DNA of 64,000 bases from Amphiura filiformis. Its lineage: Eukaryota; Echinodermata; Ophiuroidea; Amphilepidida; Amphiuridae. The notes under the pieces were generated by a model. The model saw nothing but the letters and a program-made list of their open reading frames with translations. It did not search any database and was not told the DNA's origin. Made by a program: the position numbers and the translations under genes. Positions 4,273-60,270 of this stretch are shown one piece after another. The stretch lies in assembly GCF_039555335.1 (NCBI RefSeq), contig NC_092640.1:33597887-33661886 (forward strand). The letters run 5' to 3'. The stretch's first letter is position 1. Each line of letters starts with the position of its first letter.

Positions 4273-4349
4273 TAAGGGACCGTTCACAAACACTTGTAAG
4301 GGGGGGGCTGATGCAAAAAGGGGGCCCAGAAAAATGTTGACCATCCTAG

Positions 4350-5024
4350 AAATTGAAAACCCACATGAATAGATATGTACGAGCCCATGTCTGTGTTGTC
4401 GGAAATTCGTGTCAAAAACTGGCGAGCTGCAAAGACAGTTCCATAGCCACAGGATGATATGGTATCAATTTAATAATTTCTTGAAGAAAAGGGCACCCTA
4501 TCAGTGTGATAACTGAGAAATGTGTGATGCTATCAAGCAAAATCAGTCGGAACCCGGAAATATTGATTATATTTCCTTTTGTTTCCTGTTGTTTTGGAAA
4601 TTCTTCAATTTCTCATATCTTTGGAACTAACTGTTCAATTCGGTATTCTGCAAAATGCAGCTTTGTAAATGCTTTTTAATGCCCATAAGAAAATGAAAAT
4701 GTAATAATTCTGAGTTCCGACTGATTTTGCTTGATCGCATCACATGTTTTGTTGACAGAAGTCACTTTGTTCAACACAATCAGAACTCACACTAATGAGA
4801 AATTCTTTTCGTGTGAATACTGTCAGAAATGTTTTTGTCAGAACTCTGATCTTTAAAGGCATATCAGAACTCATGCCAAAGAGAAACCCTTTCAGTGTGG
4901 ATACTGCTAGAAATGTTGTAATTACAACTGTGATCTTAAAAGGCACATCAGAAATGTTTTGGTAACAAAGGTGTCCTTATGTGCCACACTAGAACTCACA
5001 CTAAAGAGAAAACCTTTCTGTGTG
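4350..5024 (+). pseudogene. ZNF pseudogene fragment inside a MITE
   Basis: This is nearly identical to 6756-7430, including that copy's internal MITE and the same stop codons. It encodes broken parts of the shared N-terminal module and a few degenerate fingers. Stops such as CTTTAA after the HCQNSD-like helix and TGCTAG in the next finger are identical in both copies, so it was already a pseudogene when copied. It has no leader and no intact reading frame. Confidence 0.85.
4524..4743. mobile_element. GTGATG-type MITE inside the ZNF fragment
   Basis: Ends are GTGATGCTATCAAGCAAAAT and the inverse ending GCTTGATCGCATCAC, with ATGT on both sides (4520-4523, 4744-4747). In intact ZNF genes this site reads GAGAAATGTTTTGTTGAC with one ATGT, so the MITE interrupts the first finger. 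The same insertion is present at 6931-7149. Confidence 0.85.
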
Positions 5025-5334
5025 GGGGGGGCCTGAAAAAAATGACCACAAATTTTCCTTGGAAAATTGAGTTTATATGCTTTTCTATGGGGTTGACACA
5101 TAATTTTCATGTCTAAAAGGGCGGCCTTGAAATTTTGAGATCTGTAAAGGGGGGGGGGCCGAAAAATTGTCGCGATAAAATTTGTTTGCATCAGGCCCCC
5201 CTTACAAGTGTTTGTGAACGGTCCCTAAGTGATCATTTAGTGGAACAGTAAGGTAACATTCTGTACAGAAGAAAATCAATATGTGGTTTGAAAAGGTATA
5301 CTAAACATTTATTAATGTTGTTTTAACATTTCAG

Positions 5335-5514: not shown

Positions 5515-6595
5515 ATGTTGGCAATGAAATGTTTGAAACCATTTGCTTGTGCATATTGCACACTTAACCATTCGTCTTTGGCAAATTTGAAAACCCACAT
5601 TAACAGACACCTTATAAAATATGTACGAGCCCATAGATGCAAATGTATGTGTTGTCAGAAAATCTTGTCAAAAACTGGTGAACTGCAAAGACAGTTCAAT
5701 GGCCACAGGATGTTATGGTATCAATTTAATAATTGCTTGAAGAAAAGGACACCCTATCAGTGTGTGTACTGTGAGAAATGTATTGTTGACAGAAATCACT
5801 TTGTGCAACATATCAGAACTCACACTAACGAGAAATTCTTTCAGTGTGAATACTGTCAGAAATGTTTTTGTCTGAACTCTGATCTTATAAGACATGCCAG
5901 AACTCATACCAAAGAAAAACCCTTTCAGTGTGAGTACTGTCAGAAATGTTTTACGAGAAGGGTCATCTTAAAAGACATATCAGAACTCGCACCGATGAGA
6001 AATCCTTTCAGTGTGTGTACTGTCAGAAATGTTTTTGTCAGACCTCTGATTTTAAAAGGCATATCAGAACTCATGGCAAAGAGAAACTCTTTCAGTGTGA
6101 ATACTGCCAGAAATGTTTTGATTACAACTGTGATCTTAAAAGGCACATCAGAACTCATACCAAAGAAAAACCCTATAAGTGTGAGTACTGTCAGAAATGT
6201 TTTGGTGACAAAGGTGGCCTTATGCGCCACACTAAAACTCACACTAAAGAGAAACCCTTTCTGTGTGAGTACTGTCAAAAATCTTTTACTTTCAGACATC
6301 ACCTTCTACTCCACATCAGAACTCACACCAAAGAGAAACCCTTTCAGTGCGAGTACTGCCAGAAATGTTTTGCTAGAAAAAAAATGACCTTGTGAACCAT
6401 ATCAGAACACATACCAAAGAAAAACCCTTTCAGTGTGAATACTGTCAGAAATGTTTTAGTCAGAGGACTCATGTTATAAGCCACATCAGAACTCACACCA
6501 ATGAGAAACCCTATCAGTGCGAGCACTGTCAGAAATGTTTTCGTCGTAATTCTGATGTCAACAGGCACATGAGAACTCACAACAAAACATGCTAG
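5515..6595 (+). CDS. Polydactyl C2H2 zinc-finger protein A (two frameshifts)
   Basis: A likely nuclear DNA-binding protein. The ATG at 5515 is followed by a second at 5524, which matches the conserved MKxLKPF start of the paralogues. An N-terminal module (CAYC...H...H, then CCQKILSKTGELQRQF) precedes ten fingers of the CEYCQKCF-x-HIRTHTKEKP type, ending in HNKTC and TAG. The frame breaks twice: near 5949 one T appears missing from a T-run (TGTTTTACGAG), and near 6376 an A8 run has two extra A relative to paralogues. Both indels are in homopolymers, so sequencing error is a real alternative to inactivation. Finger 3 ends RTRT, losing its last histidine. Fingers vary mostly at helix positions, as expected for target recognition. 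A tandem pseudogene copy follows 5 bases after the stop. Confidence 0.75.
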
Positions 6596-6930
6596 AATTG
6601 ATTTTCATGGTGGGTTTAAGATGCACTCAATTAGATTTACATCTTTGAATATTGTTGGGTTTTATCTAAAGTTCACTATGTAAATACATGTTGGCAATGA
6701 AACGTTTGAAACCATTCACTTGTGCATGTTGCACACTTAATCATTCATCTTTGGCAAATTTGAAAACCCACATGAATAGATATGTACGAGCCCATGTCTG
6801 TGTTGTCGGAAATTCGTGTCAAAAACTGGCGAGCTGCAAAGACAGTTCCATAGCCACAGGATGATATGGTATCAATTTAATAATTTCTTGAAGAAAAGGG
6901 CACCCTATCAGTGTGATAACTGAGAAATGT

Positions 6931-7149
6931 GTGATGCTATCAAGCAAAATCAGTCGGAACCCGGAAATATTGATTATATTTCCTTTTGTTTCCTGTTGTT
7001 TTGGAAATTCTTCAATTTCTCATATCTTTGGAACTAACTGTTCAATTCGGTATTCTGCAAAATGCAGCTTTGTAAATGCTTTTAATGCCCATAAGAAAAT
7101 GAAAATGTAATAATTCTGAGTTCCGACTGATTTTGCTTGATCGCATCAC
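6931..7149. mobile_element. GTGATG-type MITE in ZNF pseudogene
   Basis: Same element and same insertion point as 4524-4743, differing by one T in an internal run. TSD ATGT lies at 6927-6930 and after 7149. Shared insertion dates the 675-bp copying event after this MITE landed. Confidence 0.85.
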
Positions 7150-7224
7150 ATGTTTTGTTGACAGAAGTCACTTTGTTCAACACAATCAGAACTCACACTA
7201 ATGAGAAATTCTTTTCGTGTGAAT

Positions 7225-8358
7225 ACTGTCAGAAATGTTTTTGTCAGAACTCTGATCTTTAAAGGCATATCAGAACTCATGCCAAAGAGAAACCCTTTCA
7301 GTGTGGATACTGCTAGAAATGTTGTAATTACAACTGTGATCTTAAAAGGCACATCAGAAATGTTTTGGTAACAAAGGTGTCCTTATGTGCCACACTAGAA
7401 CTCACACTAAAGAGAAAACCTTTCTGTGTGAGTACTGTCAAAAAAGAACTGTCAGAAATGTTTTACTAGACAAAATGATCTTGTGAACCATATCAGAACT
7501 CATACCAAAGAGAAACCCCTTTCAGTGTGAGTACTGTCAGAAATGTTTTAGTCAAAACTCTGATCATAAAAGGCAGATCAGAACTCATGCCTAAGAGAAA
7601 CCCTTTCAGTGTGAGTACTGTCAGAAATGTTTTAGTCAGAACTCTGATCTTAAAAGGCATAGAAGAACTCATGCCAAAGAGAAACCCTTTCAGTGTGAGT
7701 ACTGTCAGAAATGTTTTAGTCAGAACTTTGCACTTAAAAGGCATATCAGAACTCACGCCGATGATAAGACCTTTCAATGTGAGTACATGTACTGTCAGAA
7801 ATGTTTTTGTCAGAACTCTGATCTTTAAAGGCATATCAGAACTCATGCCAAAGAGAAACCCTTTCAGTGTGGATACTGCTAGAAATGTTGTAATTACAAC
7901 TGTGATCTTAAAAGGCACATCAGAAATGTTTTGGTAACAAAGGTGTCCTTATGTGCCACACTAGAACTCACACTAAAGAGAAAACCTTTCTGTGTGAGTA
8001 CTGTCAAAAAAGAACTGTCAGAAATGTTTTACTAGACAAAATGATCTTGTGAACCATATCAGAACTCATACCAAAGAGAAACCCCTTTCAGTGTGAGTAC
8101 TGTCAGAAATGTTTTAGTCAAAACTCTGATCATAAAAGGCAGATCAGAACTCATGCCTAAGAGAAACCCTTTCAGTGTGAGTACTGTCAGAAATGTTTTA
8201 GTCAGAACTCTGATCTTAAAAGGCATAGAAGAACTCATGCCAAAGAGAAACCCTTTCAGTGTGAGTACTGTCAGAAATGTTTTAGTCAGAACTTTGCACT
8301 TAAAAGGCATATCAGAACTCACGCCGATGATAAGACCTTTCAATGTGAGTACATGTAC
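7225..8358 (+). repeat. 566-bp tandem duplication of finger sequence
   Basis: Landmarks recur 566 bases apart: 7299/7865, 7493/8059 and 7527/8093. The copies look nearly identical. Because 566 is not a multiple of three, the duplication itself shifts frame. Either recent unequal exchange within the finger array or an assembly duplication could explain it. Confidence 0.85.
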
Positions 8359-8599
8359 TGTCAGAAATGTTTGTATCATAACTTTGATCTTAAAAGGCAT
8401 ATCAGAACTCATGCCAAAGAGAAACCCTTTCAGTGTGAGTACTGTCAGAAATGTTTTAGTCAGAACTTTGCACTTAAAAGGCATATCAGAACTCACACCG
8501 ATGAGAAAACTTTTTTTTGCAGTGCGAGTAATGTCATTCCGAAGAAAAAATCTAGAAGTGTGAGTTGTAGAGTACTTTCAAAGACCCCCTGACTTAAAG

Positions 8600-10464: not shown

Positions 10465-11437
10465 TTGATATACATAATGTTTATTGCATTGCAACAACTC
10501 GCACTATACTATGTTGCAATGTGGTATACCTACCTACCCATTGTATTATTGCACCAAACCCAGGGGCGGGCCCCCGGGGGCGGGGCAGGTTGTTAGCTAG
10601 CCACCTGTCATTTGGGACAGACATTTTGCTCCTGGACAAACATATGCAAAATTCTAGAGAACTCGAAACAAGAATACACAATAAATCAAGGCTACATGTA
10701 TAACAAGCTATTTGACACTGGGAGACATTTTTCTGTGAAAAATTTGGAAAATCTTTGCTGGATTTTCACGGATTTTCAACCAGCCATCTACACAGTACCA
10801 ACACAACATTTGTTTTATTTTGGTTGAGTAATATGCGACCACCTCAAGTGATATCACCTGAGTGATGTCACCTGAGGTTGAAAGTTGCATGAGCATATAT
10901 CCATGTCTGCGCGTAGCTGTACATACATTGTGTAGGGTGCATTTTCAGTTCAATGCTTATACGTGTGCTTTTTGACAGTCGATGTTCACAGATTCACAGA
11001 TTATCAATGTCAAGTACCCCCCCCCCGTGACACCAAATGAGGCGGTAGAAACATAAAATCCCATTAACACTACTTAAAAATGGAATATATATGAGCTTTT
11101 TATATTAAATGCACCTATAAAGTGATCATTTGGTGGGACAGTTTTGTACAGAAGATCCCTGCTTGCAGATCGACCCTTCTCATCAAGGTATAAAATCAAT
11201 ATGTGTGGTTTAAAGATATACCTAACATTTATTAATTGTTTTAACATTTCAGATTTTGATCCACTGAGACAGAAGCCAGTGAGGACTGTGGTCTTGTGCT
11301 GCTTGCTACTTCACTCCAGGACATTTATGCAAGAGTTGACTTTCATGGTGGGTTTGAGGTGCATGCAGTCACTTGATCTACATCTTTGAATACTGTTGGG
11401 TTTATGTAAAGTTCACTATGTAAATTATATATTGGCA
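10465..11437 (+). other. 5' flank, leader exon and short intron of ZNF B
   Basis: Homologous to 3740-4272 and 5226-5514. A candidate donor CATCAAG/GTATAA lies at 11187/11188 and an acceptor TTAACATTTCAG ends at 11252, defining a 65-bp intron in the leader. GC-rich and palindromic patches at 10560-10600 and 10830-10875 are unit-specific. Transcription start is not identifiable by eye. Confidence 0.45.
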
Positions 11438-12595
11438 ATGAAACGTTTGAAACCATTTACTTGTGCATATTGTACACTTAACCATTCATCTTTGGCAAAT
11501 TTGAAAACCCACATGAACAGACATCTTATTAAATATGTACGAGCCCATAGATGCAAATATGTGTGTTGTCAGAAAATCTTGTCAAAAACTGGCGAGCTGC
11601 AAAGACAGTTCAATGGCCACAGGATGTTATGGTATCAATTTAATAATTGCCTGAAGAAAAAGACACCCTATCAGTGTGAGTACTGTGAGAAATGTTTTGT
11701 TGATAAAAATCACTTTGTGCAACACATCAGAACTCACACTAATGAGAAATTCTTTCAGTGTGAATTCTGTCAGAAATGTTTTTCTCTGAACTCTGATCTT
11801 ATAAGACATACCAGAACACATACCAAAGAAAAACCCTTTCAGTGCGAGTACTGTCAGAAATGTTTTGCCAGAAAAAATGTCCTTGTAAACCATATCAGAA
11901 CTCACACTAAAGAAAAACCATTTCAGTGTGAGTATTGTCAGAAATGGTTTGCTAGAAAACATGGCCTTGTAAGCCATATCAGAACTCATACCAAAGTAAA
12001 ACCCTTTCAGTGTGAATACTGTCAGAAATGTTTTAGTCAGACGACTCATCTTAGAAGCCACATCAGAACTCACACCGATGAAAAACCCTTTCAGTGTGAG
12101 TACTGTCAGAAATGTTTTTGTCAGAACGAGCATCTTATAAAGCATATCAGAACTCATACCAAAGAAAAACCCTATACGTGTGAATACTGTCATAAATGTT
12201 TTACCAACAAAAGTGGCCTTAAATACCACACCAGCAGTCACACTAAAGAAAAACCCTATAAGTGTGAGTACTGTCAGAAATGTTTTGCTAGCAAAAGTAA
12301 CCTTGTACTCCACACCAGAACTCACACTAAAGAAAAACCCTTTCAGTGCAAGTACTGTCAGAAATGTTTTGCTAGAAACTATAACCTTGTGAACCACACC
12401 AGAATTCATACCAAAGAAAAACCCTTTCAGTGTGAGTACTGTCAGAAATGTTTTAGTCGGAGGGCTCATCTTAAAAGCCACATCAGAACTCACACCAATG
12501 AGAAACCCTATCAGTGCAAGCTCTGTCAGAAATATTTTGGTCGCAAATCTGATGTCAGCAGGCACATGAGAAGAACTCACAACAAAAAATGCTAG
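11438..12595 (+). CDS. Polydactyl C2H2 zinc-finger protein B (intact)
   Basis: 385 residues. The start ATG at 11438 is chosen because all paralogues share TTGGCAATGAAACGTTTGAA there; an upstream in-frame TTG is not used. Residues about 8-28 form an atypical finger (CAYC-x12-H-x3-H); a second degenerate Cys/His segment (CCQKILSKTGELQRQFNGH) follows. Eleven regular fingers then run to the C-terminus with TKEKPFQC-type linkers; the last is HMRRTH with an extra residue. There is no KRAB, SCAN, BTB or ZAD domain, so any effector function must lie in the N-terminal module or partners. Expected role: nuclear sequence-specific DNA binding. It is the only clearly intact member here, and the antisense ORF across it is a shadow. 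Confidence 0.9.
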   Translation: MKRLKPFTCAYCTLNHSSLANLKTHMNRHLIKYVRAHRCKYVCCQKILSKTGELQRQFNGHRMLWYQFNNCLKKKTPYQCEYCEKCFVDKNHFVQHIRTHTNEKFFQCEFCQKCFSLNSDLIRHTRTHTKEKPFQCEYCQKCFARKNVLVNHIRTHTKEKPFQCEYCQKWFARKHGLVSHIRTHTKVKPFQCEYCQKCFSQTTHLRSHIRTHTDEKPFQCEYCQKCFCQNEHLIKHIRTHTKEKPYTCEYCHKCFTNKSGLKYHTSSHTKEKPYKCEYCQKCFASKSNLVLHTRTHTKEKPFQCKYCQKCFARNYNLVNHTRIHTKEKPFQCEYCQKCFSRRAHLKSHIRTHTNEKPYQCKLCQKYFGRKSDVSRHMRRTHNKKC

Positions 12596-13212: not shown

Positions 13213-13525
13213 GTACTATCATAAATGTTTTGCTATCAAAAGTAACCTTGTGCAGCACACCAGAGCTCACACCAAATAAAAACCCTACAAGTGTGTGAAC
13301 TGTCATAAATGTTTTGCTAGCACAATTATCCTTATCAGAATTCGCACCAAAGTGACACCCGTATGAATAAGAGTAATATGTGATGTGATTAAGCAAATCA
13401 GTTGGAACTCGGAAATATTGATTTTGAGATATAGACAAACACACCAGAACTCAATGTTTTATTCGGAACATTGATCTTAAAATGCATATCAGAACTCATA
13501 CCAAAGAAAACCCTATAAGTATAAG
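13213..13525 (+). pseudogene. Trailing finger remnants
   Basis: Finger fragments with stops: CATAAATGTTTTGCTA near 13222 and 13302 and CATATCAGAACTCATACC near 13485. A partial GTGATG-type MITE end (13380-13430) lies between them. Confidence 0.7.
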
Positions 13526-13528
13526 TAT

Positions 13529-13738
13529 GTGATGTGATTAAGCAAAATCAATGCGATATAGCCAAACAAAGGAAATATTTCCTGTTGTTTTGGAAACTCT
13601 TTAATTGCTCATAGCTTTAGAACTGGTTGGTTAATTTCAATGCGGTTTTCTGCAAAATGCAGCTTTGAAAATGCGTTTTACTATCCTATAAGAAACTGAT
13701 ATTTCCAAGTTCAGACTGATTTTGCTTGATCGCATCAC
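13529..13738. mobile_element. GTGATG-type MITE, third copy
   Basis: Starts GTGATGTGATTAAGCAAAAT and ends GCTTGATCGCATCAC, with internal CTGTTGTTTTGGAAA shared with the copies at 4524 and 6931. More diverged than those two. Confidence 0.75.
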
Positions 13739-15712: not shown

Positions 15713-15908
15713 GTTTGTTGATCCACTGATGTATATCTTCAATTAGAAACAACTATAACTAGAAACAACTATAAGTAGAAACAGAATAAAGACAGAAGCC
15801 AGTGAGGATTGATCAGGACAAAGAGAGAAGAGTGAGGATTGAACAAAGACTTTGAATTTTGCTGGGTACATCTAAAGTTCCATGTAAATACATGTAACAA
15901 GAAGCAAC
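15713..15908 (+). other. Leader part of ZNF C exon
   Basis: Candidate acceptor TTTTTGACATTTCAG ends at 15712. The next bases (TTGATCCACTGA, later GACAGAAGCCAGTGAGGA) match the leader of units A and B, with inserted ACTATAA-type short repeats near 15760. Confidence 0.45.
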
Positions 15909-17060
15909 ATGATGGTAATGAAACATTTGAAGCCGTTTACTTGTGGATTTTGTGGAATTGAGCATTATTCTTTGGACAAATTGAAACTCCACATAAACAG
16001 ACATCTTATTAAATATGTGCAAGCTCGTAGATACAAAAGTGAATTTTGTCAGAAAAGTTTGTCAAAAAAAAATCTGGAAAGACATGTGATTAGCCATGGC
16101 GGAAGCCATGGGAAGAAACGGTACCAATGTAATAACCGCTTGGACATCAAAGAAAAGCCTTATCAGTGTGAGTACTGCCAGAAACTTTTCGTCTGGAAAC
16201 TTAAACTAGTGAGACACATCAGAACTCACACAAAAGAGAAACCCTTTCAGTGTGAGTACTGTCAGAAATATTTTAGTCAGAACTGTCATCTGAAAAGGCA
16301 TATCAGAACTCATACCAAAGAGAAGCCCTTTAAGTGCGAGTACTGTCAGAAATGTTTTGGTGACAGAGGTCATCTTGCATACCACATCAGAACTCACACT
16401 AAACCCTATCAGTGTGAGTACTGTCAGAAATGTTTTGCTGGAAAAAATGTCCTTGTAAAGCACATCAGAACTCATACCAATGAGAAACCCTATCAGTGCG
16501 AGTACTGTCAGAAATGTTTTGCTGAAAAACATGTCCTTGTAAACCACACCAGAACTCATACCAAAGAGAAACCCTTTCAGTGTGAATACTGTCAGAAATG
16601 TTTTAGTACGAAATGTAATCTTAAAAAGCATATCAGAACTCATACCAAAGTGAAACCCTTTCAGTGTGAATACTGTCAGAAATGTTTTGCCTACAGAAAT
16701 GTCCTTGTAACCCACACCAGAACTCACACTAAAGAGAAACCCTTTCAGTGCGAGTACTGTCAGAAATGCTTTAGTCAGAACACTGATCTTAAAAGGCATA
16801 TCAGAACACATACCAAAGAAAAACCCTATAAGTGTGAGTACTGTCAGAAATGTTTTGGTAACAGAGGTGGCCTTGTGCGCCACACTAGAACTCACACTAA
16901 AGAGAAACCATTTCTGTGTGAGTACTGTCAGATATGTTTTACTTACAGCAGAGACCTTGTAAAGCACACCAGAACTCACACCGAAGAGAAATCCTTGACG
17001 GGTGTAACCTTAAGCACTGACCACCCCATCCTTAACCAAGAGGTATCGTCTGCAATATAG
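15909..17060 (+). CDS. Polydactyl C2H2 zinc-finger protein C (C-terminus disrupted)
   Basis: 383 residues from ATG 15909; ATGs at 15912 and 15918 are alternatives, the last matching the paralogues' MK(H/R)LKPF start. The first finger-like segment (CGFC...H...H) is kept. The second has lost one cysteine (KSEFCQKSLSKK), unlike A and B. Ten regular fingers follow; between fingers 3 and 4 of this set the linker is shortened to THTKPYQC. After finger 10 the frame runs into unrelated sequence at about residue 362 and stops, while finger remnants resume at 17116, so the ancestral protein was longer. Helix residues differ from A and B in most fingers. Expected nuclear DNA-binding role; likely still translatable. 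Confidence 0.85.
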   Translation: MMVMKHLKPFTCGFCGIEHYSLDKLKLHINRHLIKYVQARRYKSEFCQKSLSKKNLERHVISHGGSHGKKRYQCNNRLDIKEKPYQCEYCQKLFVWKLKLVRHIRTHTKEKPFQCEYCQKYFSQNCHLKRHIRTHTKEKPFKCEYCQKCFGDRGHLAYHIRTHTKPYQCEYCQKCFAGKNVLVKHIRTHTNEKPYQCEYCQKCFAEKHVLVNHTRTHTKEKPFQCEYCQKCFSTKCNLKKHIRTHTKVKPFQCEYCQKCFAYRNVLVTHTRTHTKEKPFQCEYCQKCFSQNTDLKRHIRTHTKEKPYKCEYCQKCFGNRGGLVRHTRTHTKEKPFLCEYCQICFTYSRDLVKHTRTHTEEKSLTGVTLSTDHPILNQEVSSAI

Positions 17061-35328: not shown

Positions 35329-37161
35329 ATAAAATCACAAAAAATAGGACAAAATTAAGGGGTAGGGGAGATATAAATTCCCATAACTCAACTTTTACTC
35401 GTGATTTTGAATTCATTTTGGTATCAATATGTAGCTAAATGATTTTCCTAACTTTCTAGTATTATTTTTAAACAAAAACAGGTTTCATTTGAGCATGTTT
35501 GGAAGTATATAGTCCATAAATGAGTGGTAATCTGATTTTTTAAAACCATATGTGTAATGTTTGACATTGGCCTCAAATCTCACAACTATACCACTTTATA
35601 TTTTCAAAATTGATTCAGTTTCCATTTTTAATTTTTTAATTTCCATTTTAATGTTTTATCTTGTTTTTAATGTTAAGAATATATAGGGAAACATTATTGT
35701 AACAGTTCCAATCATTATAATAGGTATGAGTTCGTTGGGGTGTCTGTGGGACGGGGTGTGTGTGGGGTACTGGGTGTACATAAGGTATGTGTGGGGGTAT
35801 GGGGAGGGGTGTGTGTGTACATGTTTTAATATGTCACTACACTGCACCAACTTCCATTTACAAAATCCGTTAAGTTTCCATTGATGTAATATTTTGAATA
35901 TTTATGTCTAGGACGTGAGAAACCACTGGGAAAAAGACAAAAATTTAAAAAAAAACCCAAAAAACCTAACAAAAACTGATGTTGATTTCCCTCGTATATC
36001 AGCATAACATAGAAAAATATTAAGGGGTAGGGGAACTTCTAACTTTTTAGTATTATTTTAAAGCAAAGCAACCATTAGTTGTCAGACAGATATACAGAAA
36101 CTGTGAGGAAAAGGTAACTTTTCTATGTCTAACAGCGTGAAGATGACAATATTACGGGGTAGGGGAAATGTATTACGTCATAACTCAACTTTTACTCATG
36201 AAAATGAATTCATCTTGGTATCAAAATATATCCAAGTTATTGGTCTAGCTTTCTAGTATTATTTTAAAGCAAAGCGACCATTATTTATCAGGCAGATATA
36301 CAGAAACTGTGAGGAAAAGGTAAATTTTCTATGTCTAACAGCGTAAAATGACAATATTAAGGGGTAGGGGAAATTTATAACTGCCATAACTCAACTTTTA
36401 CTCATGAAAATGAATTCATCTTGGTATCAAAATGTATCTAAGTGATTGTTCTAACTTTCTAGTATATTTTAAAGCAAAGCGACCATTATCTGTCAGGTAG
36501 ATACACAGTATTTGTGAGGAAAAGGTAACTTTTCTATGTCTAACAGCATAAATAAATATGACAATATTAAGGGGTAGGGGAAATATAAACTGCCACAACT
36601 CAACTTTTACTCATGAAAATGAATTCATCTTGGTATCAAAATGTATTTAAGTGATTGTTCTAACTTTCTAGTATTATTTCAAAGCAAAGCGATCATTAGT
36701 TGTCAGGTAGTTACACAGAAACTGTGATAAGAAGGTACGTTTTCTATGTCTAACAGCGTAAATATGACAATAGTATGGGGTAGGGGAAATGTACACTGCC
36801 ATAACTCAACTTTTACTCATGAAAGTGAATTCATCTTGGTATCAAAATATATCCAAGTGATTGGTCTAGCTTTCTAGTATTATTTTAAAGCAAAGCGACC
36901 ATTATTTGTCAGGCAGATATACAGAAACTGTGAATAAAAGGTAAATTTTCTATGTCTAACAGCGTAAAATGACAATATTAAGGGGTAGGGGAAATTTATA
37001 ACTGCCATAACTCAACTTTTACTCATGAAAATGAATTCATCTTGGTATCAAAATGTATCTGATTGGCTGTTCTAACTTTCTATAAACAAAGCGATCATTA
37101 GTTGTCAGGTAGATACAAAGAAACTGTCAGAAGAAGTCATTTTCTATATCTAGCAGCGTAA

Positions 37162-37435
37162 GGGCCGTTCACACTTGTAACGGGGAGGGGCCTGATGCAA
37201 AAAAATTTCATCGCAAAAAGTTTTCGCCCCCCCCCCCTTTACAGACCTCAAACATTTTTAGGCCCCCCTTTTTGACATGAAAATTATGGGTCAACCCCAT
37301 AGAAAATCATATAAACTAAATTTTTCCAGGAACATTTTTGGTCATTTTTTTCAGGCCCCCCTTAGGAGGGTCAAACATTTCCAGACCCCCCTTTTTTGCA
37401 TCAGGCCCCCCTTACAAGTGTTTGTGAACGGTCCC
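37162..37435. mobile_element. PIF/Harbinger-like MITE, 274 bp, without cargo
   Basis: Same family as 4276-5225: inverse end GTGTTTGTGAACGGTCCC, TAA duplication at 37159-37161 and 37436-37438. Neighbouring tandem units read AACAGCGTAAATATGAC, the empty site. It shows the intact middle of the family, where the other copy holds ZNF sequence. Confidence 0.9.
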
Positions 37436-40400
37436 TAAATATGACAATATCAAGGGGTAGGGGAAATATAAACTCCCATAACTCAACTTTTACTCGTGAT
37501 AATGAATTCATCTAACGTTCTAGTATCATTAGTTGTTATGTAGATACAAAGGAAATGTGAGAAAAAACTTCCATGTGTAACAGTGTCAAATATGATAATA
37601 TTAAGGGTAGGAGAAATATTACCATAACTCAACTTTGGCTGCATTAACTGTGAAGGGGAACACGGGAATACAAATCGTTGCACCAAAATTTGAATGTAGT
37701 ATTCGATTGAGGTTTCTTACGTTAATTGGTGCAATTGGACCATTTTTAAAATTTGACCTTTATTTATGATATTTTTGATATATTCGACGTTATAACCCCT
37801 GAACTAAGCTTCGTAGAACTATGACAATTGTCTTCTTTTAAATTCTTAGCGATGAGAGGAACAATTTGAGATTACAACATTACAACATGATAGGATCATT
37901 TTTTAGTATTGGCCCCATTATGACCTTCAACCCCTCGTGGGAAACTTAATTGCTTTTAAAATAATGCCAGAAAATGAGAACAATCAAATAGCTACATTTT
38001 CGTCAGTGAAACTTGTGTTTTGGTGATTTGTATGTCCCCTTACCCCTTAATATTGTCATATTTTACGCTGTTAGACATTGAATATTAACATTTTCATACA
38101 ATTTATGTCTATCTATCGGTATAGCATAATTATGTACATACTTTTAAAGTATGATGTTTTGCATAGACTTTTTGTATCGAGTTTGGTGATAAAAATATTT
38201 GTCAACTTGTGAATCAAATGTAAATTAAGAAATATATTGCATTATATCCTAACAATTTTGATTAACCTTTTGCAATTTTTAGGAAATATTCCACCCAGTT
38301 ATGTATCACCACGTGGTCATTTTAATTCAAGGGTTTATACCACTAAATCAGACTTCTGCCCGCTTCTGCCCAAGTTTATCAGTCATATAGTGCCATCTTT
38401 ACATTCAAAATGTGACAACTTGATATAATATTAGCAACTTTAGTGTTCAAAATCGTGTTTAAATACAATTTCTTAATGTAAATGTCATACAGGTTAAAAT
38501 GAAACGGGAATATTCGGGCAATATTTAAGACTATCTGCGCATGAATACACAAGGGAAAAATGTAGTTAGCAGTCGTCAAATCGGTGTTTTTATGTATCAC
38601 TGATTTTCTCAACAAGTAGACGAGTAATGTTAATTGCTTTTAAAATAATACTAGAAAGTTAGAACTATCAAAATAGCTACATATTGATACCAAAATGAAT
38701 TCATTTTCATCAGTAAAACTTGAGTATGGTGATTTGTATGTCCCTACCCCTTAATATTGTCATATTTTACGCTGTTAGACATGGAATATCAACATTTTCT
38801 CATTGTATGTTTAACTACCTGACAACCAATGGTTTAATTGCTTTTAAAATAATGCCAGAAAATGAGAACAATCAAATAGCTACATATTGATACCAAAATG
38901 AATTAATTTTCATCAGTAAAACTTGAGTTTGGGTGATTTGTATGTCCCTTACCCTTAATATTGTCATATTTTACGCTGTTAGACATTGAATATTAACATT
39001 TTGTGTCTATCTACCGGACAACTAATGAATTAATTGCTTTTAAAATAATACTAGAAAGTTAGCAGTCGTCAAATCGGTGTTTTTATGTATCACTGATTTT
39101 CTCAACAAGTAGACGAGTAATGTTAATTGCTTTTAAAATAATACTAGAAAGTTAGAACTATCAAAATAGCTACATATTGATACCAAAATGAATTCATTTT
39201 CATCAGTAAAACTTGAGTATGTCCCCTACCCCTTAATATTGTCATATTTTACGCTGTTAGACATGGAATATCAACATTTTTCTCATTGTATGTTTAACTA
39301 CCTGACAACCAATGGTTTAATTGCTTTTAAAATAATGCCAGAAAATGAGAACAATCAAATAGCTACATATTGATACCAAAATGAATTAATTTTCATCAGT
39401 AAAACTTGAGTTTGGGTGATTTGTATGTCCCCTTACCCCCTTACTATTGTCATATGTTGCGCTGTTAGACATTGAATATTAACATTTTCATACATTTTAT
39501 GTCTATCTACCGGACAACTAATGACTTAATTGCTTTTAAAATAATACTAGAAAGTTAGAACTATCAAATAGCTACATATTGATACCAAAATGAATTCACT
39601 TTCATCAGTAAAACTTGAGTTTTGGTGATTTGTATGTCCCCTACCCTTAATATTTTCATATTTTACGCTGTTAGACATGGAATATCAAAATTTTTCTCAT
39701 ATTGTATGTTTAACTACCTGACAACTAATGGTTTAATTGCTTTTAAAATAATGCCTGAAAATGAGAACAATCAAATACATATTGATACCAAAATGGAATT
39801 CATTTTCGTCAGTGAAACCTGTGTTTTGGTGATTTGTGTGTCCCTTACCCCTTAATATTGTCATATTTTACGCTGTTAGACATTGAATGTTAACATTTTC
39901 ATACATTTTATGTCTATCTACCGGGCAACTAATGGCTTAATTGCTTTTAAAATAATACTATAAAGTTAGAACTATCAAATAGCTACATATTGATACCAAA
40001 ATGAATTCATTTTCATCAGTAAAACTTGAGTTTGGTGATTTGTATGTCCCCTACCCCTTAATATTGTCATATTTTACGCTGTTAGACATGGAATATCAAC
40101 ATTTTTCTCATATTGTATGTTTAACTACCTGATAACTAATGGTTTACATGTAATTGCTTTTAAAATAATGCCAGAAAATGAGAACAATCAAATAGCTACA
40201 TATTGATACCAAAATGGAATTCATTTTCATCAGTAAAACTTGTTTTTGGTGATTTGTATGTCCCTACCCCTTAATATTATCATATTTTACGCTGTTAGAC
40301 ATGGAATACTAACATGTTCGTACATTTTATGTCTATCTACCTCACAACTAATGGTTTAATTGCTTTTAAATAATACTAGAAAGTCAGAACTATCAATTAA

Positions 40401-48464: not shown

Positions 48465-50472
48465 TAGACGGCAAGACTGAGTGCACCCAGCCACTTCCCA
48501 CACGGAGAAGCGACTGCGTGCAGACACATCACGAGAGATGTGAGATCCACCGACCTGAATCAAAAGGGCAGGTCGATGCACCTCACATGGAACAAAAGCA
48601 GAAAACTAAATATAAAAATAACAAAGCATCACTATCATTCAGCCAATAATAATAATAATCAATACAGTACAAATAAATAGTACAAATAAATAGATGGCCA
48701 GACTGAGTGCACCCAGTCCCTTCCCAACCAGGAAGTGACTGCGTGCACACAGATCAAAAACAATGTGAGACCCACTGACATGGCTCATGGGAGCCAGTCA
48801 GTGCACCTCACATGGAGCGAGAGCCAGAAACAAAGTATAGTTCAATACAAACCAGGAATACATCATAACATAACATAACATAACAGAAAACCTTTGGTGC
48901 GCTGTTCCTTATGACAAGCTCGTAGCGCTTACAAAGTAAAAATAAAAACATCTTAAGGTACACAAAGCAAAACCTTAAGTAAATAACATTATAGAGCACA
49001 AACCTTAAATTTACATAATACAAGTCATAAAATATAAAGATCAACAAAGTAAAACACATCATGGAAAAAGATTCTCTTATTGTGATGGATTCTCTTATTG
49101 TGATAGGAAGTTTATTCCATTCCCGTGAAGCACATAAAGTAAATGTCCTGTCGCCTGCTCTAAGGTGAGCCTAATTGGGGTAATCCAAACGAAGGAAATC
49201 ATTGACGGATCTGAGATTACGGGTTGGATGATAAATATGAAGACAAGTATTCAGATAATCTGGTGCTAAGTGGTTTAGAGTCTTGTAGACGTAGAGGAGC
49301 AGTTTGTAGATAATACGCTGTTGGACAGGAAGCCAATGAAGAGCAGACAACAATGGTTGCGAATCGTGCTTGCGAGGTACATTAAAAACAAGTCGAGCTG
49401 CCCAGTTTTGAAGACGTTGAAGACGAAGGATGATTACAAGTATCTTTATCAATATGATTACAAGTATCTTTATCAATATATTTCCGTATTCTAGTTAAAT
49501 TACGTAGATGAAATGTAGTTGTTTTGCATAAATTAGTGATGTGCGTTGTCATAGACATATTTGTATCAAAAAATGAACCAAGATTACGAATTGACTCTGA
49601 TGGCAAGATGGTTGAATCTCCCATTTCGAGCGAAACATTGTTGATAAAGCGTGTGTTATGAGGAGACGATGCAATGAAAAATTCAGTTTTATCATTGTTG
49701 AGTTGTAATTTGTTTTGGATCATCCAAGTTTTGATTTCATATATACAGTTGTGAAGTTTTGCAATAGCATTATCTAATTCACCAGGTATCTTAGGATTAC
49801 AGGAGACGTAGAGTTGAATCATATTTCAACAAGCATAAATTAATACAGTACACACAATTAATAATCACATACATGGCCAGACTGAGTGCACCCAGCCCCT
49901 TCCCAACCAGGAAGTGACTGCGTGCACACAGACCAAAACAATGTGAGACCCACTGATGTGGCTCCAGGGAGCCAGTCAGTGCACCTCACATGGAGCTGTG
50001 GCCAAAAACAAAGTATAAATTCAATATAAATCATGAACATGTATGATATCAAGCATAATTTACTGTAAATACATTACACAAAAACCTCATACGTGTAGAT
50101 GGCCCGACTGAGTGCACCCAGCCCCTTCCCAACCAGGAAGTGACTGCGAGCACACAGACCAAAACAATGTGAGACCCACTGACATGGATCCAAGGAGCCA
50201 GTCAGTGCACCTCACATGGAGCTGGGGCCAAAACAAAGACTAATTCAATATAAATCATGAACATGTTTGATATCAAGCAAAAATTTTACTGTAATTAACA
50301 CTGTCATAAATAAATACATTTCACAAATACCTCATAGATGGCTCGACTGAGTGCACCCAGCCCCTTCCCAACCAGAAAGTGACTGCGAGCACACAGACCA
50401 AACAATGTGAGACCCACCGACATGGTTCCAGGGAGCCAGTCAGTGCACCTCACATCCATGGAGCAAGAGCCA
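48465..50472. repeat. Five ~125-bp modules in the LINE 3' region
   Basis: GACTGAGTGCACCCAGCC followed by TTCCCAACCAGGAAGTGACT and ending GTCAGTGCACCTCACATGGA at 48470, 48693, 49873, 50100 and 50340. The last three are in tandem with a period of about 230-240. The middle pair is separated by the LINE fragment at 49060-49830. Confidence 0.85.
49060..49830 (-). pseudogene. Reverse transcriptase C-terminal fragment of a second LINE
   Basis: Minus strand: IKTWMIQNKLQLNNDKTEFF and IRNLGSFFDTNMSMTTHI (post-YADD region), then LQNWAARLVFNVPRK, LSALHWLPVQQRIIYKLLLY and AGDRTFTLCASREWNKLP, the usual end of CR1/L2-type polymerases. A 24-base direct repeat duplicates IDKDTCNH, and a short one duplicates ITIRES. 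Frame changes separate the parts. Distinct in sequence from the LINE that surrounds it. Confidence 0.8.
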
Positions 50473-50504
50473 GAAATTCAATACAAGTAAAATAATCATG
50501 ATCA

Positions 50505-52560
50505 TTAATGAAAAATAACACAGTCGTTAGACCACATGTCATTAAACAGGTACGTCTTTAGCATAGATTTGAAACTAAGTACAGTCTTTGCACATTTGAT
50601 TGTCATAGGCAGTTCATTCCATAGTCTTGGTGCAGATGCTGAAAACGATCTATCCCCGTATGATGTGGATGTTTTCACTGGTTCCAACAAGAATTTAGTA
50701 CCGGACCTTAGCGAACGCATGGGCTTGTATTCAGTCAGTAATTCCGAGATGTAATTCGGCGCAAGCCCATGAAGTGACTTGTAAGTCAGGAGCAGGATCT
50801 TGAACATAATTCGCTTCCGAACTAGCAGCCAGTGTAACTCTTGTAATACCGGGGAGATGTGATGTCGTTTCTTCACCAGAGCAACCATTCTCGCTGCAGC
50901 GTTTTGAACCTGCTGAAGTTTATCAAGCTCGCGTTCTGGTAAGCCGAATAACAGTCCGTTACAACAGTCCAAGCGTGATGAAATGAATGCATGTACAAGC
51001 TTTGCCGCTGTTACTTGATCCAAGTACTTGCGAATCTGACCGATCTTATATAGTGCAAAGTTCGCAGCTCGACAGATGTTGTTCACATGCTTGATCATGG
51101 TGAGATTGCTGTCAAGGATTACTCCCAGATTCCGAGCAGAAGACACAATGTTTACTTGCTCTGAACCGATCTACATTGCCTGAACTGGTGATGAACTCCT
51201 TAGGAACTTAGATGTGATATGCAGAATCTCTGTCTTCCCACCAATCAGTTTCAGCCTGTTTGCTGTCATCCAGGATTTAACCTGAAGCACACACTGCTCG
51301 AGTTGTGAAATCGCGGCAGTTCTTTCAGAAGGGTTGAAGACCATGTATAGTTGAGTGTCGTCTGCATACACCATCAACTCAATTCCATCAAATGATCTAA
51401 TAACGTCCTCCAGTGGTGCAGTATACATTGAGAAACATACTGGCCCAAGTACGGAGCCTTGTGGGACACCATCATGGAGGGGAGAATGTCCAGACTGGAT
51501 TCCATCAATGACCACTGATTGTGTACGGTCAGAGAGATATGACTGGAACCAACGAAGTGCGGTACCATTCACCCCGTACCGGTTTGACAATCTTTGCAGG
51601 AGGATATCGTGGTTAATGGTATCAACAGCGGCTGTTAGATCTAATAAAACAAGCGCAACTTCCCCGTGTACATCAGCTGCACGAAGAATGTCGTTTGAAA
51701 CACGTAATAGGGCGGTTTCGGTTGAATGGTGCTTGCGATACGCAGACTGTCGTTCGCCTTGTAGGTTGTGCGTGTCAAGGTGATTATTTAGTTGCAACTG
51801 CTCTTTCAGTGATCTTAGACATGAAGGACAGATTTGATACCGGGCGGTAGTTTGTTAAACACTCCGGATCAAGCGTTGGCTTCTTAATCAGTGGAGTCAA
51901 CCGGGCTTCTTTGAAACAACTAGGAACCTCGCCAGATGTTATCGAACAGTTCACAATATCGCAGATAGTAGGCAACAGTTCATCTAGACACCTCTTTACC
52001 AGCCAGGATGGAATTGGGTCAAGAGGGCAAGACTTAGACTTGGAGTCCATGATGATTTTGCGTATCGCATCGTGTGACACCTCCTGAAATTCGCAGAATT
52101 GGGGAACGTTTCTTTTAACATCCTGTACTGGAGTTGCGTCACAAAGACTGTCCAATTCTTTCTTCACTTTCTCAATTTTGCCTGTGAAGAAGGTGGCAAA
52201 ATCACATGCAAGATCATGAGCAGAGTCGTGAACTGGAAGAACTTTAGCTGGTTTAGCGCTAGAGAGCTTGTCGATGAAATGGAACAATTTGCCCTGCTCA
52301 CAGTCACTAACTTGAGCTCTGTGGTAATTGGTCTTAGTTTTCTCAAGCTCCTCCTTGTACTCTGTGCATTTTTCTTGGTACAGCTGTTTGTGCACTTCAA
52401 GTCCAGATGATGTCCACTTACGCTCAAGACGGCGTTTCTCTCGCTTTTTCTCACGCAACATGTCGTTATACCATGGCGCATGTGGTCTGAGGGTAATAGA
52501 TCGTGTCACAACAGCTGTAGGTGTCGATCGCACGACTTCATGAATATTGATTGGCAACAT
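50505..52560 (-). pseudogene. LINE reverse transcriptase, three reading segments
   Basis: Minus strand. Segment 1 (52560-51784) has the linker and TNYRPVSNLSFMSKITER. Segment 2 (51797-51171) has SAYRKHHSTETALLRV, DLTAAVDTINHDILL, GVPQGSVLGP and the catalytic YADDTQLY, then stops after SSPVQAM. Segment 3 (51146-50505) starts SARNLGVILDSNLTM and ends with LQQVQNAAARMVALV, LHWL and RSFSASAPRLWNELP. One frameshift and one stop separate nearly complete domains, so inactivation looks fairly recent. VD replaces FD in motif A. Confidence 0.85.
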
Positions 52561-52743
52561 TTTCCAATATGCCAGCGCTCAAATCGGACACAATAGAACA
52601 ATAGACCCTTCAGTGCGTTGCTTGCACGCCTCATTTGGGAGATATTTGGTTGTTTCAGACAACGCCTTGCATGGTCTATTGTTCTATTGTGTCCTGTTTG
52701 AGCGCTGACATATTGGAAAATGTTGACAATCAATATTCATGAG
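52538..52743. repeat. Hairpin at the 5' truncation of the LINE
   Basis: TTCATGAATATTGATTGGCA and CAACATTTTCCAATATG with CACAATAGAACAATAGAC are mirrored at 52668-52743. Arms about 80 bp, loop about 50 bp. The left arm overlaps the first codons of LINE segment 1. Confidence 0.85.
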
Positions 52744-58659: not shown

Positions 58660-59190
58660 TGTTTTAAATAGTAAACCTACCTGACAAAAGAAAAAGCAGT
58701 CGGCCTCTCTCTATTAACCAATACATATTGCAAAGTGTAGAATGTGTGCAGTTCACATCTTGAAGCTGCGAACATTATTATTTAAAAACAATAGTATATG
58801 TGTAAAACATGTGTCGGCTACACATATTACAGAGTGAAATGCAATAAGAGGGGACCATGGTAACGATGATTTATAATTATGAAAAACGTGCAAAACCTGC
58901 AAAAGATTATAGCAACCATGTTAGTTGTGTTCGTTTTAATAACTTTAATAATAATTTTAATGAAATAATGCTTATTGCCGGGGTCATCGGACTCATGCGT
59001 GTATGAGTTGTTTACTGTTTGAAAATCATTCACCTGTGAAATTGACACAAAAGGCTGATTGGACATGCTCATTTACATAACAAATACACTAGTTTTGGAG
59101 GGAACTTTAAAATTTAAAATGCCTTGCGTGCGTTCTTGTCATTCATGTTAGAGACACGTGTAAGTACTTTGAGGTGATTCTTGCTGTTCA
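58660..59190. other. Upstream of transposase, no left TIR found
   Basis: Expected counterpart of the right end (CAGGGTGGGCCATTAAAAG) is not visible between the microsatellite and the transposase start, so the element appears left-truncated. No other gene. Confidence 0.4.
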
Positions 59191-59192
59191 AA

Positions 59193-60270
59193 ATGCGGCA
59201 GTTTACAAAGGAGGAACGAATTTTCATCGAGGAGGAAATTTCAAGAACCGGAAAGGTGCGCTCTGTCCTGAATGCATGGCCGAACCAGTTTCCGAATACC
59301 AGACTTCCTAGTCGCCGACACATCTATAATATTAAACAAAAGTTTCACTTACATGGAACTGTTCTCAATCGGAACAAATCTAACAGTGGGAGACCACGAA
59401 CAGGAAGATCAGCCAATCACATTGCCGATGTTAGAAGGGATTTGCAAGCTAACCCAAGATTGAGTACTCGACGGAACAATTGTCCCCATATTCCAAGGAC
59501 AACGTTCAGACGAATCATCACTCATGATATCGAATGGCACCCTTACAAGATCCTTAAGCGTCATGGACTGCAACCAGGAGATCCAAATCGGCGACTTCAG
59601 TTTTGTAACTGGTTAGTTAACAGAGCACGTCGCTTTCTTGATACCGCTGTTGTTGTTGACGAGGCAAATGGACGGGTCTGTCTCTTCTCAAAACGTACGG
59701 ATGTATGCACCGAAAGGCAATCCTCCGAGAGACTTTGCTTTTAACGTTCCACATGACAAACGCAAAGTTAGTGTTCTCGCAGCCGTCACAGGAAACAACC
59801 GGTTGATAGGATCGATATTCGTTGACCAGAACATAAATGGAAACGTTTACCTCGACATAATCAATGATCAACTAGAGCCTCAACTGGTCCAAATATTTGG
59901 ACAGCAAGCGAACGGGGCCATCCGCAGGGCGTGGTTCTTTCAAGACGGAGCGCCAGCCCACCATCTTATCGCTGTTAGAGACAGATTGCAGGAGTTGTTT
60001 CCGCATCGTGTTGTCGGCCATGGACATCATGTGGAGTGGCCTCCGAGGAGTCCTGATCTGACACCTTTGGACTTCTGGCTGTGGGGTGATGTCAAGGCGT
60101 ATGTGTATGCCGAAGGTCCGCAAAGGAATTTGCGGGAGCTGAGGAGACGTATTACAGATGCGTTCACAAGGATCCGACGCACCAGGGTTACTTCAAGAGC
60201 AGTTCACCATATGTACGATCGTGCGATGATTTGTATTCGCGAGCAAGGAGGCCACGTTGAAGGACGATAA
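59193..60270 (+). pseudogene. Mariner-like DD41D transposase with one frameshift
   Basis: ATG 59193 (MRQFTKEERIFIEEE). N-terminal helix-turn-helix regions follow (HIYNIKQKFHLHG, then SGRPRTG and FRRIITHDIEWHPYKILKRH). The first catalytic Asp is in VVVDEA near 59658. About 8 bases are missing right after it relative to the expected DEAxFxMxG, shifting the frame; the downstream frame reads SVSSQNVRMYAPKGN, FQDGAPAHH (second Asp) and PPRSPDLTPLDFWLWG (third Asp, 41 residues after the second). It ends RAMICIREQGGHVEGR. Cut-and-paste transposition function in active relatives, nuclear. All three acids survive but in two frames, so no single protein can be made as read. Confidence 0.85.

Follow-up and report, generated by a model that had tools for sequence, protein, structure and literature searches.

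How did a piece of a ZNF pseudogene come to lie inside a short DNA transposon, between the two halves of the element and a short way upstream of the sequence that it copies? The locus lies in a window of 64 kb (the whole stretch of Amphiura filiformis DNA that was analyzed, 64,000 nucleotides), and it makes a clean case, with the source, a cargo-free relative of the transposon, both target duplications and an empty site all within those 64 kb. A sequence-only reading had set two answers side by side: capture of a gene fragment by the transposon (Pack-type), and a conversion event that pasted ZNF sequence into a MITE already inserted.

A ZNF segment between the two halves of a MITE

The loaded element (MITE1, 4276..5225, plus strand) begins and ends in TIRs of 30 nt (4276..4305 and 5196..5225) that pair with 100% complementarity. 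The inverted arms as detected, 4275-4305 and 5196-5226, are 31 nt long and likewise 100% complementary, and they include one flanking base, which leaves 30 nt for the TIR itself. By reading, TAA stands on the left (4273..4275) and on the right (5226..5228), so that both of the target duplications previously described are in place. TAA flanks both ends of both MITE1 copies in the window, which fits the 3-bp TWA target duplication of a PIF/Harbinger MITE, and the element is also short with TIRs, as such a MITE should be (30-nt TIRs, cargo-free copy of 274 bp). On its target site and TIRs alone, MITE1 would thus be PIF/Harbinger-like. A 24-nt TIR pattern, allowing at most 3 mismatches, finds three sites in the 64-kb window (4276, 5202, and 37412), against 0.00 expected from 100 shuffles; this pattern misses the left end of the cargo-free copy, which has diverged too far. 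TIR patterns had no match in viral_contigs or in genome_contigs, two collections in which this organism would not be expected, and the TIR sequence occurs in none of the papers of the library searched.

None of the 10 ORFs of the window that were scanned with Pfam matched a Harbinger-family transposase. The sole transposase match among them is DDE_3 at 59617-60267, and in the region around it (59178-60267) overlapping frames carry pieces that resemble a transposase, the DDE_3 match being preceded by a weak helix-turn-helix match (DUF4817); the whole looks like a broken mariner/IS630-type element. On the minus strand at 49174-52578 there are ORFs that resemble pieces of a LINE reverse transcriptase by eye, and two of these, compared with Pfam, gave no match at an E-value of 0.001.

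Two copies of MITE1 are present in the window, and one of the two is loaded with cargo. The cargo-free relative lies at 37162..37435 on the minus strand and is 274 bp long, with TAA on both sides. When the left part (4276..4348) and right part (5025..5225) of the loaded element are joined, they align to the reverse complement of this relative with 240 matches and 26 mismatches, and they match it in extent to within 1 nt. At most one A of MITE1 sequence is missing at the insertion point (0-1 nt of ~274, with one relative as reference), in keeping with the earlier impression that no MITE sequence had been lost. The perfect 30-nt TIRs, the complementary halves and the 672-column copy between them bear out the description of a ZNF segment enclosed in a TIR MITE. 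Two independent half-insertions are rejected, as the two halves complement each other without overlap to make up a single element and have no target duplication between them.

The cargo and its source

The cargo (4353..5024, plus strand) is a copy of 6760..7430 (plus strand) in a ZNF pseudogene, with 672 aligned columns and one 1-nt indel. This indel, an extra T within a T run, is the sole difference, making the cargo 672 bp and the source 671 bp; there are no substitutions among the 671 paired bases, and the 95% upper bound on divergence is near 0.45% (3/671). The two copies have the same orientation with the source downstream, 2,407 bp apart from start to start and 1,534 bp from the right end of the element to the start of the source. 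Near-identity to sequence 2.4 kb away had been noticed from the letters and is confirmed by the alignment. The limits proposed for the two copies (4350-5024 and 6756-7430) stand at the right end, 5024 and 7430, while the start at 4350 takes in an ambiguous GAAA and moves to 4353 and 6760 in the alignment. No second full-length match to the cargo was found in the window. Positions 4818-5024 also match 7790-7996 (207/207), since a tandem duplication takes in this part of the source.

ZNF homology continues beyond both ends of the source, and no MITE1 TIR was found there with the 24-nt pattern in the window, so the copy was made from the source into the MITE. The reverse, a ZNF sequence derived from the MITE cargo, is excluded by the homology that crosses both source ends. 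The anatomy of the insert, its relation to the source and the direction of copying are thus shown by the sequence. There is no sign of a functional product of the cargo, which has stops in all three forward frames.

Source and cargo both hold a second MITE (MITE2), at 6931..7149 in the source (plus strand), with ATGT on both sides, and at 4524..4743 in the cargo (plus strand), where it was copied along (219/220 to 6931-7149, one gap). MITE2 is ~220 bp long and has imperfect inverted ends of ~41 nt (90%) that begin GTGATGC, with 4-bp ATGT flanking repeats; it is absent from the homologous fingers near 5773, 11687, and 12883. Since it is present in both the source and the cargo, MITE2 had evidently inserted into the source before the source was copied into MITE1.

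Another MITE2-like element, at 13380-13738, encloses a ZNF finger (13442-13527) and a second, truncated MITE2 left end, and its outer flanks, by reading, carry ATAT on either side. Aligned to MITE2 it gives 180/209 bases when 13442-13568 is omitted and 168/198 when the inner left end is used; identity hardly differs between the two alignments, and more bases are aligned with 13442-13568 omitted. The inserted stretch holds the second MITE2 left end at a similar finger position, and the finger parts (56/75) and MITE2 ends (38/40) disagree in age. The structure is either an older filler event or a duplication across the ZNF/MITE2 boundary, and the inner MITE2 end at a like finger position looks more like a boundary duplication than like an independent capture.

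Empty sites and the order of events

The paralogous unit B has an empty site at 11111..11128 (plus strand), located by alignment to the flanks of unit A, the unit that holds MITE1. Unit B reads GCACCTATAAAGTGATCA, where unit A reads CACCTATTAA, the element, and then TAAGTGATC; one T/A differs at the site itself, and unit B has one TAA-like site where unit A has two copies of TAA around MITE1. Joined, the flanks of unit A match unit B with 396 matches and 44 mismatches (90.0%), in an alignment that is good on the right side and has many gaps on the left. The empty site that the sequence-only reading saw in unit B is therefore present, and the lack of MITE1 in unit B is consistent with arrival of the element after the A/B duplication. 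The cargo copy is more than twenty-fold less diverged than the A/B flanks (10%), barring later refreshing by conversion, and it is far closer to its source than units A and B are to each other. We infer that MITE1 was resident before the cargo arrived.

The cargo-free copy at 37162 sits in a tandem array. Dispersed-to-tandem repeat units surround it at 36300-37520, with copies at 36344, 36553, 36965, and 37436, and one neighboring unit supplies its empty site. Four regions of the array were aligned and two of them span the site: one has a clean 3-base gap (one TAA instead of two), and the other is ungapped and reads TAAATAAATA. This second empty site counts as supportive without being clean. 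Its weakening leaves the relative weight of the explanations considered below unchanged, because that weight does not rest on the 37162 site.

The joins

At the left junction, the GAAA at 4349..4352 (plus strand) is ambiguous, its assignment to source or MITE being uncertain, and at the right junction there is a run of eight G (5024..5031, plus strand), the first of which is common to source and MITE. Depending on placement, microhomology at the joins is 0-2 nt. Among 20,000 random joins, at least 1 nt is shared in 45% and at least 2 nt in 17-18%, so that the microhomology here is at chance level and uninformative on mechanism. Being no better than chance, it was dropped as evidence for template switching. 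The sequence-only reading had named identity and junction microhomology as the things to look for in an alignment of cargo to source, and the alignment gives near-identity for the one and this chance-level 0-2 nt for the other.

Both joins fall inside MITE1, 73 nt from its left end (73/274), beside a G run. Between 2312 and 11016 there are four G/C runs of at least 6, all of them in MITE1 and one of them at the join, and by chance 24/275 positions of MITE1 (8.7%) would fall no more than 1 nt from an edge of such a run. The position of the join at a G run is weak evidence, and the run may owe one of its bases to the join. By reading, there is no direct repeat of MITE sequence and no poly-A around the insert; the junction sequences are those of a patch without a target duplication of at least 5 bp and without poly-A, the form that defines class 2 templated insertions. 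Insertion of the cargo in the manner of a Helitron or a LINE was rejected, since by reading the junctions lack a TSD, poly-A and matching ends.

A rearranging ZNF cluster

The source overlaps a perfect tandem duplication with a unit of 566 bp (7224..8355, plus strand), the copies of which, 7224-7789 and 7790-8355, are identical at 566/566 positions, and therefore the locus has been rearranged recently. The join of the two copies has 17 nt of identity, as expected of exchange between finger repeats, and there is a diverged third partial copy (7790-7925 versus 8356-8491, 119/136). We considered megablast self-matches of at least 60 bp and at least 90% identity, among which the tandem duplication is given as one match of 97.6%; this row extends into the diverged third copy, which holds all 17 of its mismatches. 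Among these self-matches the cargo pair and the 566-bp duplication are the only ones of at least 500 bp with 0-1 difference. That two local duplications so young lie within 5 kb suggests that the cluster is rearranging, and a faulty assembly could give the same picture. Further along, at 11390-12592 and 15888-17057, are long open C2H2 zinc-finger frames of 401 and 390 codons from stop to stop, apparently less decayed paralogues of unit A.

How the cargo came to be inside the element

We consider it probable that the cargo was acquired in cis and independently of transposition, by filling of a gap in a resident MITE from the nearby ZNF pseudogene, and that the result is a young Pack-TIR. A non-autonomous TIR element with TAA duplications, a PIF/Harbinger-like MITE, would have landed on the upstream side of one ZNF unit. 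Some time afterwards the resident element would have suffered a break or a stalled fork beside the oligo-G run ~73 nt from its left end; repair would then have taken the ZNF pseudogene 1.5 kb downstream as template, copied ~672 bp of it and rejoined the copy to MITE1 with 0-1 nt of the MITE lost. A break at the G run may have been the trigger, and either end joining of the patch or polymerase template switching could have done the copying. Gap filling in situ is favored over transposed cargo because the source has the same orientation and is only 1.5 kb off, MITE1 has a gap of no more than 0-1 nt, and the insert has no surrounding duplication. The source distance and orientation and the near-complete MITE, together with the joins by a G run, are also why a paste into a resident MITE is the better supported of the two earlier proposals. 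That proposal survives in its order of events and gives way in its mechanism: this is not classical gene conversion, because at the joins the MITE has no more than 0-2 nt in common with the source. The other proposal, Pack-type capture, fits the structure, in the sense of the Pack-TIRs of PMC8277862, while capture by transposition, movement of the loaded MITE1 and spread of the cargo are less likely.

The nearest body of data is that of Tan et al. 2021 (PMC8277862), who describe 370 Pack-TIRs in 100 animal genomes. By the definitions given there, the flank on each side of the insert takes in 10 bp or more of the ends of a single TIR element, the insert is within 100-5000 bp, with at least 90% identity to its parent and a length ratio within 80-120%, and the 100-bp flanks of the parent should be free of TEs; here those flanks have no MITE1 TIR, and MITE2 is inside the source and not in its flanks. 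They look for a unique best parental copy genome-wide; within the window, 6760-7430 is the only full-length match to the cargo. Two marks of single-copy gap filling are present, the source in cis (1,534 bp) and a small gap in the element (0-1 nt of ~274). In their data 160/281 Pack-TIRs (56.9%) have their source no more than 15 kb away, most of these under 5 kb, the median gap is 4.6% of the element, and an orthologous cargo-free element was found in outgroups for 91/97 primate cases; most single-copy Pack-TIRs are inferred there to be breaks in resident elements that were filled from nearby templates without transposition. Our case matches this model save for breakpoint microhomology, which exceeds chance in PMC8277862 and is at chance level here. 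The short distance to the source is partly ascertained, as the reader of one window could notice only nearby sources.

Four rival explanations were weighed. If a transposase had excised MITE1 from one chromatid, and repair templated by the sister had switched to the ZNF sequence and back, then the TIRs and target duplications would likewise be kept and a nearby template used; PMC8277862 cites gap repair after P element excision as a precedent, and the join being closer to one end (73/274) is mildly in favor. Repair of this kind is expected to delete more of the interior, from breakpoints close to the termini (PMC8277862), whereas here 0-1 nt was lost, and no transposase for MITE1 was found among the 10 ORFs scanned; we regard excision-dependent repair as unlikely. 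Slightly less credible to us is mobile capture, in which the ZNF fragment was acquired at another site or time and the loaded element then transposed into unit A. In its favor, the loaded element as a whole has intact TIRs and is flanked by TAA duplications, and unit B has an empty site; in plants, the main class II superfamilies are known to include Pack-type elements (PMC8903248). However, the loaded element must then have landed 1.5 kb from its own source, the source lacks the MITE1 ends that capture by tandem insertion would require, just one of the two copies in the window is loaded, and the multicopy transposed cases that PMC8277862 describes in frog and alligator are far from their sources.

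Reads or haplotypes of a repetitive ZNF array may be wrongly joined in an assembly, and two near-identical local duplications within 5 kb, the cargo and the perfect one of 566 bp in tandem, are also what mis-joining would produce, but the joined sequences share just 0-2 nt, which does not favor mis-joining driven by overlaps, and an indel separates the cargo from the source; an artefact of this kind is very improbable in our judgment. Still harder to credit is an old capture, in which MITE1 took up the ZNF fragment at a much earlier time and conversion afterwards homogenized the fragment with the nearby source. Exchange of sequence in ZNF arrays is suggested by the perfect tandem duplication, but identity reaches to within 0-4 nt of both joins, with no diverged cargo at the edges.

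Returning to filling of the resident MITE, a bolder version would have the MITE insert and the 566-bp tandem duplication arise from one replication-based episode of template switching at the G-rich MITE, with oligo-G MITEs as sites where templates are switched again and again, scattering ZNF fragments in the cluster, and with the finger inside a second, unrelated MITE at 13380-13738 as an older case. We would give this version little credence. Given its youth, the copy may still be polymorphic, and in that case in-situ filling and mobile capture would be directly distinguishable. The locus is thus of good value as a test locus, for a process that is itself already described in animals.

Comparison with known systems

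Templated insertions of another kind share some of these features. As in the class 2 templated sequence insertion polymorphisms described in PMC5110952, there is a copied patch with no target duplication or poly-A and with joins like those of end joining, but the templates in that report are distant and held to be RNA-derived, and the template here is 1.5 kb away.

In plants, where reports of Pack-TYPE elements extend to all main class II superfamilies (PMC8903248), a gene fragment lies between the two ends of one TIR element, as it does here (PMC8903248, PMC13317346). Unlike what the tandem-insertion model would lead one to expect, there are no MITE1 ends at the source. An animal element of the Harbinger superfamily with host gene fragments inside it is also described, Turmoil-1 of C. 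elegans (PMC2572040). Unlike MITE1, Turmoil-1 is 5,024 bp long and has a transposase, and its cargo, which is found again in partial copies, sits within TIRs of 760 bp.

The closest likeness is to the single-copy animal Pack-TIRs as presented in PMC8277862, in which a TIR element is split by a copy of nearby sequence with a small gap, from a source in cis less than 5 kb away, with the TIRs and target duplications intact. Besides the chance-level microhomology, two differences can be named. The cargo here holds a second, nested MITE, unlike the cases presented there, and the carrier is PIF/Harbinger-like by its TAA site, whereas hAT or TcMariner elements make up 323/370 (87.2%) of the carriers in that set; the words Harbinger and PIF are absent from its main text. 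The locus would thus add a TAA-type (PIF/Harbinger-like) carrier to a list dominated by hAT and Tc/mariner. A carrier of this type may be less usual, with Turmoil-1 already on record. There is no new mechanism here: the structure and the inferred mechanism are those of the single-copy animal Pack-TIRs.
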